Assembly (NCBI GenBank): GCA_025060635.1
Contig: JANXBN010000001.1
Location: 815,284 to 879,283 of the forward strand
Source of the DNA: Candidatus Kryptonium sp.
GTDB taxonomy: Bacteria > Bacteroidota > Ignavibacteria > Kryptoniales > Kryptoniaceae
DNA length: 64,000 bases
Direction of reading: 5' to 3'
The translations under genes and the position numbers were made by a program. The notes beneath the pieces were generated by a model, which saw only the letters and a program-made list of their open reading frames with translations, made no database searches and was not told the origin of the DNA. Shown here piece after piece: positions 27,974 to 33,364 of this stretch (the stretch's first letter is position 1; each line of letters begins with the position of its first letter).

Positions 27974-28474
27974 TTACCACCATCTATGTAATTTTAATCC
28001 TCTGCCAGGTTTAGCCCAATCGCGAAATCTAAATTCCGGTCCAAATCCAAATTTCCAATAACCAAATTTTTCTTTTAAAATTTTCCTTTGCTCTGGGGTC
28101 AAAATTTGTTGAATATTTATCCAGTAATTTACTCGGTTTTGAGTCAACTCTTTCATATATCTGGAAATTTCGTCCATCTTTTTGTCAATTGCCGATCTAT
28201 CAAGTTTTTCAGCGTAGAGCAGTTCTTGGAGTTCAATTCTTGCTTTGTTCAGTTTACCAACTATTTCCGCTTGATTTTTGCGAAATTCAAAAAATATGTT
28301 TTGAAGTTTAGATTTTTGTTCATCTGTTAGTTTTAGTTCTTCATAAAATTTGGTGATGCTTTTCCGCCAGCGGTCATCGGCAGGGAAATCAAATTCAGAG
28401 CCAAGTATTTTGGAAAAAGAGTTTGTTGCGATTAAGATCAACGCGATTCCTATTAAAACTATTTTTGTTTTCAT
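27974..28474 (-). CDS. Spy/CpxP-like periplasmic protein
   Basis: 166 residues with a signal peptide (KIVLIGIALILIATNSFS). Two LTxxQ-type repeats, LTDEQKSKLQNIFFEF and LTPEQRKILKEKFG, frame a helical middle (IVGKLNKARIELQELL), the layout of the Spy/CpxP family of periplasmic stress proteins and chaperones. The C-terminus is Trp/Phe/Gly/Arg-rich. It diverges from the amidohydrolase gene to the right. No two-component partner is adjacent. A metal-resistance role (CnrX/ZraP-like) is an alternative. Confidence 0.75.
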   Translation of the reverse strand: MKTKIVLIGIALILIATNSFSKILGSEFDFPADDRWRKSITKFYEELKLTDEQKSKLQNIFFEFRKNQAEIVGKLNKARIELQELLYAEKLDRSAIDKKMDEISRYMKELTQNRVNYWINIQQILTPEQRKILKEKFGYWKFGFGPEFRFRDWAKPGRGLKLHRWW

Positions 28475-30073: not shown

Positions 30074-33000
30074 ATGAAGCAGAAAAATCTAAACATAATT
30101 TTATCTGTTGTCCTCGTTCTGTTTTTACTTTCTATGTTTGGGCTTGGGTTTTACCTGTATAAGCAAACTGAAAAAGAGATCGTGGATATATTAGGAAAAC
30201 AGCAAATTTTGATATCAAAGCAAATTCAGAAAGCGGTTGAATCATATTTTCAATCCAGAGCTCAAGGACTAAAAGCTTTGTCATCTTTTGAGTCAATCAT
30301 AAAAAGAATCCCCGAAAAAATAAAGGACGATGTAAACTCTTATTATCAACATCTAAAGTCGTATTATGTCCCCGCAATTTCTGTTTTTGATGAAAAAGGC
30401 AGGGTTATTTATTCAACTTCCAAAGAGGCAATCGGGAAGGATTATAGTTCTTATGACTTTTGGAAAAAGTTGGAGCGATCGTATAAAGATAGTTTATTTT
30501 TTGTTCCAATAGTTGAGCCAGATAGTTTGATGAACCTTTTGTATAAAAAACCTTTTTCTTTGGCTATCTCGTCTGTTCATATTAATGGTAAGTTTCTCGG
30601 AGCGGTTGCATACACGATTGAAATTGATTCACTTATAAGTTCACTTGTAAAATCTTTTGACTCCGAAGTTAAGTTTTTAGACATATGGATTATGTCTGGG
30701 GATAAAATTTTAAGTTTTCATTCCTCGCATCCTGAAATGGTTTTAAGGCGTGCTCAATTTAGTGAGAGCAAATGTTACAATTGCCATATTTCTTTTGGAT
30801 ATGTTGATACTATGCTTGTTAAGGAATCGGGGATGATAAGATATAAATTGAAGAATTACCCAGAGAAGCTCGCTGGTTTTTCTCAGCTTAAAGTAGGCAG
30901 CGAAAGCTTTATTTTCGTTGTAGCGGTTCCTTTTGGTGAGGTTTTGAAAATAGCAAGAGTGAATTTGGAAATTGTATATTTGCTTCTTGGATTGGCAATG
31001 CTTATTCTTGTAGTCTATGGATTTTTATTTTTGAGGAATTTACGGGAAATAATTCGGGCAGAGGAGAGAGAAAAACAAAGGGAAGAAAGGGAAAAGATCC
31101 AGAAACTTTACACTTTACTTTTCCAAAATTCAAACGATGGCATTTACATACTTGATCTTGAGAACAGAAGATTTATTGAAGTTAATAAACGATTTCAGGA
31201 AATGTTTGGTTACACGCTTGATGAGTTAAGAGAGCTTGATTTTATTAACCTCGTGGCTCCTGAATCAAGAATTTTGATTGAAGAGAGAACTCAGAAAATA
31301 GCTCGTGGCGGTCCAGCCCTGCAAAGATACACATTTACAGCACTTGCGAAAGATGGTAAAAAATTTGAGGTTGAGGCAAGCGTTAGTTATGTGCGATTTG
31401 GAAAGAAAATGTATATGCTTGGAATCTGTAGAGATATAAGTGAGATTTTGAGACAGAAGGAACTTTACCAGAATTTGTTTGATAATTTACCGGTTGGCGT
31501 CGTCATACATCAAGATGGAAAAATTGTTAAATGTAATAAAACAGCAGTTCGCGCTTGCGGTGCTGAATCGGAAAACGATTTGATTGGGAAACCTGTTCTT
31601 AATTTTGTTCATCCGGATTTTGTTGAAATTGCAAAGGAGCGAATAAGAAGAATCATAGAATATGGTGAAGAGGTTCCACCTGTTGAAGAGAAGTTGATTT
31701 GTCCTGATGGTAGAGTTATTGATGTTGAGATAAGATCATCAAGGATAATTTGGGAAGGAAAGCCAGCGGTTCAGGTCGTTGTCTCAGATATTACGGAAAT
31801 CAAGCGACTTCATAGGGAATTGATGCAGAGATACTCCGATGAACAGAAATTAAAATCAAGGTTTGAAGCAATTCTGAAAAATATCTCTGATGGAGTTTTG
31901 TATCAAAATGAGCAGGGGATAATTGAGTTCGTAAATGAAGAATTTTGTAAAATCGCAGGTTACAGGTCTCCTGATGAGCTGATCGGAAAGACATTTGATG
32001 AATTTCTTGAAAAATTTAAGGAGTTACTTGAAGATTTGAAAGAGATAGATAAAATAAAAGGTTGGGTGAGAGATAGAGAATTTGTCAAGTATGATGAATT
32101 GAAGTTGAAAAATGGGCGAATAATTGAGCGTACTGGGATTCCAGTTTTTGATCTGAACGGAAGGTATATCGGGCGTTTGTCCTTGGCAAGGGATATAACC
32201 GAAAGAAAGCAAAAAGAAAAACAGATCCTTGAACTTCAAAAGTTTGAAGTTCTCGGACATCTTTCAAGTGGAATTGCACATGATTTTAACAATGTGCTTG
32301 GAATTATAAGTGGAATGCTTGAGATCATAAGGATTAAGACCTCAGATAAAAATATAATTGGTTATCTTGATTCGGCTCTTTCCGCAGTTCAAAGAGGCGC
32401 TGAAATAGCGAGACGACTCTTGCAATTTTCAAAAAGAAAAATTGAGGAGTTCAAACCTATCTCTGTTAAAAATCTCGTTCTTGATTGTGTCAAGATACTT
32501 GAGCATACTGTTCCGAAAAGTATCCAAATAAAAACAGATATTGCTGATGATTCTATTATTTATGGTTCCTATGGCGATTTACAGCAGGTAATTTTAAATC
32601 TTGCTATAAATGCAAAAGATGCTATGCCATCTGGTGGTGATTTGACAATTACCGTTAATTCAATAGATAAAAGTTTCATTGAGAAGAAATTTGGAAAAGT
32701 TGTTTCCGATTCTTATGTTATGATTGCGGTTTCTGATACAGGAGTTGGAATTAGCGATGAACTGAAAGAGAAAATCTTTGAACCATTTTTCACAACGAAG
32801 GAACCAGGTAAAGGTACGGGATTGGGGCTTGCGATTGTTAAAAACATAGTGTCAATTCACGGAGGTTATGTTGATTTTGAAAGTGTAGTTGGCAAAGGAA
32901 CAACATTTTTTGTTTATCTCCCGGTTCAGTTTAAGGGAGGAGAAGAAACTAAAACATATCGGGGAGAGGAGAAAATGCAAAAAGTAGAAAAAATAGGGGA

Positions 33001-33364
33001 GGGTTATAAAGCGCTTGTCGTTGAGGATGAGGAAAATTTGAGAATTATTATGAAGGATTACCTTGAAATTTTAGGATTTAGTGTGATTGAGGCTACCGAT
33101 GGGGTTGAAGGGCTAAAGAAATTTGAAGAAAACAAAGATATTAAAATTGTTTTCGTTGACTATGGATTACCGAGGATGATGGGAGATGAGTTAATAAGGA
33201 GAATAAATCAAATTTCAAATGATGTGAAGTCAGTTCTCGTAACTGGTTTTGTTGATATTGGGGATGATGTGAAGCGCTCGCTCCCATCGGGGACGAGGTT
33301 TTTAAAGAAACCATATAACTTAACCCAAGTTGAGGAAGTTGTGAAAGAATTTTTGAACATGTGA
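30074..33364 (+). CDS. Hybrid sensor histidine kinase with periplasmic heme motif, three PAS domains and receiver
   Basis: 1096 residues. A transmembrane helix at about 9-28 is followed by a roughly 265-residue periplasmic sensor with a c-type heme motif, Cys234-x-x-Cys237-His238 (CYNCH). A second helix lies at about 297-317, then a short Glu/Arg-rich coiled stretch and three PAS domains (about 345-455, 460-575, 590-710). The HisKA domain has phospho-acceptor His736 in IAHDFNN. The ATPase domain shows the N box [20 protein letters not shown] and [11 protein letters not shown]. The receiver has phospho-acceptor Asp1029 ([10 protein letters not shown]) and the conserved Lys in FLKKPY. It probably senses redox state or a gas through heme. 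No separate output regulator is adjacent. Confidence 0.92.

Follow-up and report, generated by a model that had tools for sequence, protein, structure and literature searches.

The gene at positions 30074–33364 (+ strand) of the window, the whole 64,000-nucleotide stretch of Candidatus Kryptonium DNA that was analyzed, encodes a hybrid histidine kinase, and the prediction that its exported sensor domain carries a covalent c-type heme is well supported by the sequence comparisons described below. The reading that we favor, with moderate confidence, is that of a heme-based sensor of redox or respiratory state, in which the c-type heme lies in the membrane-proximal module of a double Cache (dCache) domain. 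The kinase looks like a member of a second heme-bearing Cache family besides sCache_heme.

The gene is a single open reading frame of 1096 amino acids with an ATG start and no inner stop. The initial annotation had described a Cys234-x-x-Cys237-His238 motif between two membrane helices, followed by three PAS domains, a kinase and a receiver, and this architecture was borne out, with the residue numbering correct. Hydrophobic helices at residues 8–26 (30095–30151; hydropathy 2.75 over 19 residues) and 300–318 (30971–31027; hydropathy 2.7) flank an extracytoplasmic double Cache domain at residues 29–297 (30158–30964), which was assigned from a Pfam dCache_1 (PF02743) match at residues 35–217 (49.1 and 51.9 bits in two scans, cut-off 45) and from AlphaFold2 models of low-to-middling confidence that match solved dCache domains. 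This domain contains the segment HSSHPEM at residues 216–222 (30719–30739), where the association of His and Met with motif-bearing rows makes His219 or Met222 a candidate distal heme ligand, and the predicted c-type heme attachment motif CYNCH at residues 234–238 (30773–30787), invariant among the orthologs of the genus as well as across 41 aligned homologs that were chosen as motif-bearing. Downstream of the second helix, Pfam gave PAS domains at about residues 345–455 (31106–31438; PAS families, with the end estimated), 464–575 (31463–31798) and 601–713 (31874–32212), a HisKA dimerization domain (32258–32437) with His736 as the likely phospho-acceptor in view of the GIAHDFNN box, a HATPase_c catalytic domain at residues 835–951 (32576–32926; E 6e-24) and a receiver domain at residues 981–1090 (33014–33343; Response_reg, E 8e-15) with Asp1029, at the VDYG position, as the likely phospho-acceptor; all of these features are on the + strand. 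The HisKA match (E 1e-4) was below the cut-off at 22.6 bits against 26.9, and its position fits the architecture. The presence of HisKA, HATPase_c and a receiver within one protein identifies a hybrid histidine kinase.

The outer part of the protein (residues 29–297) contains only two Cys and five His, and CXXCH arose by chance in 1 of 20000 shuffles of this part and in 8 of 20000 when the whole protein was shuffled. Alignment of homologs, which had been suggested as a check on the motif, confirmed its conservation. Orthologs with 47–56% identity over the sensor part were found in five of the six other genomes of the genus, and all five retained Cys234, Cys237 and His238; the ortholog search gave no match in the genus-mate G005, a genome that is 71% complete. 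In the sister family f2, a homolog was found in 7 of 13 genomes and CXXCH occupied the corresponding place in all seven, the BLAST alignments of these homologs being confined to stretches within residues 5–155; the copy in G014 has an inner stop downstream of the motif. The other check concerned genes for cytochrome c maturation, which were found to be present. PF01578, the cytochrome-c-assembly family, is matched three times in the genome. The first is a 780-residue ORF that reads as CcmF, its matched 209 residues fitting the CcmF/NrfE models under their full-length cut-offs; the second is the gene directly upstream of this ORF, and the third adjoins a hemA-like ORF. CXXCH codon patterns are in excess genome-wide, with 250 occurrences against 40 for the reversed pattern. 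An exported CXXCH together with a cytochrome c maturation system is the combination expected of a c-type heme protein, and both are present here. CXXC pairs are able to form disulfides, and the models are not confident enough around the motif for a pocket to be assessed, so a heme-free domain in which CXXCH serves as a structural disulfide or metal site had to be considered; it appears improbable, as the His is invariant together with both Cys in an exported domain of a genome with these maturation genes and many CXXCH sites.

The AlphaFold2 models, built from four sequences, had a mean pLDDT of 65 that fell below 50 in the motif region, and hence they give no reading on the heme pocket. Comparison of the whole fold with solved double Cache domains by Foldseek gave TM scores mostly of 0.55–0.63 among the top rows. 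The order of structural elements in both models, at middling confidence, and the VIA-align scores against solved double Cache domains (best Z 17.7, 227 residues, 3.2 Å) showed two Cache modules in one domain, with CXXCH in the membrane-proximal one. In both models the motif is placed between strands 2 and 3 of the proximal module with three main strands after it, at a confidence below 50. Sequence searches of solved structures returned no match up to E 1 for P0002 and only weak matches for A1, including a cytochrome c that aligned with the motif region at E 0.57. The structures of GSU0582 and Tll0287 were absent among the structural matches listed, which is uninformative either way.

The nearest known system is sCache_heme (DUF3365/Tll0287-like, PF11845), for which a 2026 preprint claims the first covalently attached cofactor known in any Cache domain (PMC12889525). 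It shares with the window sensor an extracytoplasmic Cache fold, a c-type CXXCH and fusion to kinases (PMC12889525), and the window kinase might in principle be an ordinary member of that family overlooked by its profile. Both belong to the Cache superfamily, and among five other family members scanned with PF11845 the best score was a sub-threshold match near the motif of the genus-mate protein L014 (E 0.21). However, the PF11845 profile gave no match up to E 1 in the window protein (P0001, P0002), and two PF11845 proteins searched with a motif-masked model of the proximal module gave no match (E over 100). While sCache_heme is a single module with another profile, its CXXCH described as inserted between strands 3 and 4 (PMC12889525), the window sensor is a double Cache whose proximal module bears the motif, which both models place, at low confidence, between strands 2 and 3 and ahead of three strands. 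The same genome also encodes a separate, stand-alone PF11845 protein (L099; G000 C1:223379–223852), and that family is present in all seven genus genomes searched. Membership of the window sensor in PF11845 was rejected because of its profile and fold, and the notion of an overlooked member is very improbable. Since the masked model found no match in the two PF11845 proteins and the motif is apparently placed differently, the two families were kept apart; the heme loop apparently differs from that of sCache_heme, as far as the low-confidence models indicate, and a separate gain of the motif in the double Cache family is likely.

A search of the genomes of the class with a model of 13 sensor domains gave matches in 57 of 391, of which the returned loci and 20 further places were covered and the weakest matches left out. 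Among the de-duplicated ORFs inspected, 41 had CXXCH, always at the same place, and 13 did not. The 41 rows represent 42 known copies (a motif-bearing copy of G008 was removed in de-duplication), spread over 36 genomes. The 13 rows without the motif comprised three gene pieces and 10 ordinary dCaches; of the pieces, L074 (126 amino acids) stops before the motif, and L065b and L082b come from genes that carry CXXCH in their other part. Motif-bearing rows scored at least 69 bits against the model, and full-length rows without the motif at most 61 bits. As the motif was itself included in the model, the search was repeated with residues 216–246 cut out. Of the 30 rows that scored at least 66 bits, 29 had the motif, and the remaining one is a fragment that ends before it; below 58 bits, 12 rows had the motif and 12 lacked it, so the separation is clear only among closer members. 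Pfam analysis of nine further family members identified HATPase_c in all nine, a passing HisKA in eight and dCache_1 in seven.

Ordinary dCache_1 sensor histidine kinases share with the window protein the PF02743 profile match, the fold and the location of the domain between two membrane helices. As a control, 30 of the 58 PF02743 matches listed for 41 relatives were inspected, and all ORFs of at least 120 amino acids were scanned. The motif was present in all six orthologs of the window gene, whereas CXXCH was absent from the kinase ORF in all 24 other proteins, as it was from the 10 ordinary dCaches among the homolog matches; in one control locus (L132), CXXCH occurred in an overlapping short ORF and not in the kinase ORF. 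In a tree of 68 rows (41 with the motif and 27 without) with the motif columns masked, the motif-bearing rows were united except for a long-branch intruder, L135. Constraining the 41 rows to stay together improved the likelihood over that of the unconstrained short search (AU p 0.81), and without L135 the 41 rows formed one side of a branch with an SH-aLRT support of 92. These quick trees of a divergent set are consistent with, and do not prove, a single gain of the motif in the family.

In phylum-wide samples of 395 genomes, the A1 query matched 17 genomes and the A6 query 28. A dCache CXXCH was present in 6 of the 17 loci returned with A1, all from own or same-class genomes, while the 30 loci returned with A6 comprised seven with dCache CXXCH (own or same class), three diheme kinases and 20 without the motif. 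A search of plasmid records with the L052 sensor gave no match. The literature searched at the level of titles and abstract openings, with most subscription papers outside its coverage, contained no report of a double Cache domain with covalent heme. The portion of PMC12889525 that was covered does not discuss double Cache heme domains; the term dCache occurs there twice, in one reference and for one protein otherwise called sCache.

Other CXXCH-bearing sensor kinases were also encountered. L008, in the same genome and about 45 kb before the window (C1, about 769.2–770.9 kb), as well as L199, L201 and L206, are HAMP sensor kinases with CXXCH, and L008, L201 and L206 have an additional CXXXCH in a short outer domain. 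These kinases of the L008 type possibly constitute a diheme sensor family. A Pfam scan of L008 gave no PF11845 or dCache match, and a match to an NtrC-type regulator adjoins it (C1:767932–769227). Common descent of the window sensor with the diheme HAMP kinases was considered and was not supported, as the matches vanished once the motif columns were removed: the proximal-module model with these columns matched L206 at E 2e-7 and L201 at E 5e-5, and without them at E 2 and 10. L008 gave no match either way (E 16 and 230). Elsewhere in the genome, two multiheme-cytochrome-like runs of nine and eight CXXCH codon sites on one strand (G000 C2:171811–172872 and C2:191818–193428) flank a cytochrome oxidase gene at C2:179323.

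Periplasmic c-type heme is also known from chemoreceptors. GSU0582 and GSU0935 of Geobacter contain such a heme and are reported to show a redox-linked change of the distal ligand (PMC8396549); they differ from the window protein in being chemoreceptors and not kinases, and they are placed in DUF3365/Tll0287 sets (PMC12889525). DcrA of Desulfovibrio vulgaris likewise has a periplasmic c-type heme, with which it senses redox potential and oxygen (PMC8396549), but is a chemotaxis transducer, and it is likened to the window protein by description only.

The alignment offered a candidate for the second heme ligand. Within the segment 214–224, at least one His was present in all 41 motif-bearing rows against 10 of the 27 rows without the motif, and Met in 32 of 41 against none of 27. 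Column by column, His219 was found in 34, Met222 in 32 and His216 in 23 of the 41 motif-bearing rows. The six f2 rows in the alignment lack both His219 and Met222 and have a single His upstream. Among 20 diverse members, C234, C237 and H238 were the sole invariant columns, and columns 44, 219, 222, 257 and 279 were nearly so, the last being mostly Trp and, in the window protein, Phe. His216 had been entertained as a universal distal ligand, being invariant in the 11 and 13 rows aligned at first; with the column kept in only 23 of 41 rows, His219/Met222 or some His of the segment is preferred. In GSU0935 a Met is the redox-linked distal ligand (PMC8396549), and by analogy we infer that the HPEM segment may undergo a similar redox-linked ligand switch.

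The absence of a response regulator gene adjoining the kinase, as described in the initial annotation, was upheld, with none seen by eye among the ORFs of at least 120 amino acids at 17–45 kb of the window. Reading by eye showed an amidohydrolase-like gene and citrate synthase as neighbors of the kinase. L029 and L141 share this pair on either side of the kinase; the gene after the kinase is citrate synthase in L030 and a malic-enzyme-like ORF in L028, and the surroundings differ in L142 (G006). A small exported protein, apparently similar to the Spy/CpxP kind, is encoded at 27974–28474 (− strand) of the window, and L029 and L141 also have it close to their kinase genes. In L145 and L147, which come from separate genomes of the same genus, reading by eye placed the heme dCache kinase gene between genes resembling 2-oxoacid:ferredoxin oxidoreductase and ATP synthase beta/epsilon. 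The window kinase has a receiver of its own. Two Hpt matches occur elsewhere in the genome, which makes a phosphorelay possible.

A different arrangement was found in a subfamily of short kinases, defined as open frames of 585–629 amino acids and represented by 10 loci. Here an NtrC-type regulator lies beside the kinase in at least 9 of the 10 loci, Rieske and cytochrome b genes are near at least six, and a multiheme cytochrome c gene is near at least five; these counts are lower bounds on account of short contigs, and the neighbors were assigned by Pfam on representatives and by BLAST to these for the rest. In six loci (L155, L156 and L160–L163) the dCache-heme kinase gene is clustered with those for an NtrC-type regulator, a Rieske protein and cytochrome b, and in five of them the cluster also includes a multiheme cytochrome c carrying between 4 and 11 motifs. 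Respiratory-chain genes do not adjoin the window kinase or its long relatives in the manner of this subfamily. The initial annotation assigned no output to the window kinase; the short kinases do suggest one, an NtrC-type regulator often located by Rieske/cytochrome b genes. A sigma-54 consensus scan of the 10 loci returned no strict site before the Rieske/cytochrome b genes and one looser site, in L157, which is not ahead of these genes; control of the Rieske/cytochrome b genes by the neighboring regulator consequently remains a proposal.

The location of some relatives beside respiratory genes suggests that the sensor reads the state of respiration. The lineage, 'Ca. Kryptonia', is one of geothermal springs (PMC4737851). 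Oxygen and iron are its reported respiratory electron acceptors, and of the denitrification steps it reportedly has nitrous oxide reductase alone (PMC4737851); the sole heme-copper oxidase match in the genome best fits cytochrome c oxidase subunit I. The initial annotation had proposed a redox, oxygen or nitric oxide sensor. The covalent c-type heme underlying this reasonable proposal is supported by the motif kept in orthologs, by the maturation genes and by the motif-free state of the other dCache_1 loci. Sequence alone does not separate redox, NO and O2, but the His/Met segment, the neighborhood of the short kinases and the respiration of the lineage tilt the balance to redox or respiratory state as the likeliest signal, with NO next.

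For the favored redox reading, the following mechanism can be envisaged. Cys234 and Cys237 would receive the heme from the cytochrome c maturation system, with His238 as one axial ligand and a residue of HSSHPEM (His219 or Met222) as the likely second. The redox state or ligation of the heme would follow the redox state of respiration on the outer side of the inner membrane, and the resulting change would shift the proximal Cache module and membrane helix 2; this shift would be relayed via the three PAS domains and set the kinase.

A serious rival, which we hold to be unlikely, is that the same heme domain responds to NO, which would bind ferrous heme and displace a labile ligand, as proposed for signaling-fused sCache_heme. 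One sCache_heme protein with signaling architecture bound NO and released it slowly, and a stable complex with oxygen did not form (PMC12889525), and 'Ca. Kryptonia', with its nitrous oxide reductase, lives beside denitrifying Thermus (PMC4737851). That protein belongs to another family, however, and is described as having no protein distal ligand (PMC12889525), whereas a His/Met segment accompanies the motif here; moreover, the lineage is reportedly devoid of other denitrification steps (PMC4737851), and the short-kinase relatives adjoin bc-type genes. Sensing of oxygen or of another small ligand such as sulfide or CO is improbable: the lineage is reported as aerobically respiring (PMC4737851) and the genome has a cytochrome c oxidase gene, but c-type heme Cache domains tested to date are described as forming no stable oxygen complex (PMC12889525), and nothing in the present data points specifically to oxygen, sulfide or CO.

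Taken jointly, the observations allow a wider reading, put forward tentatively and at rather less than an even chance, in which heme was gained at least twice in Cache sensors, here as a 'dCache_heme' with a different loop in the proximal module, the HPEM segment acts as a redox ligand switch, and in part of the family the sensor and an NtrC-type partner govern a Rieske/cytochrome b/multiheme branch. If true, the redox state of the chain itself would set the expression of the Rieske/cytochrome b/multiheme-cytochrome branch in that part of the family, and a second, separately placed heme in a double Cache fold would mean that the step to covalent heme was taken more than once. It would also provide a second system in which NO sensing and redox sensing by Cache domains could be compared, and a testable regulator of respiratory genes in these poorly cultured thermophiles and their relatives.
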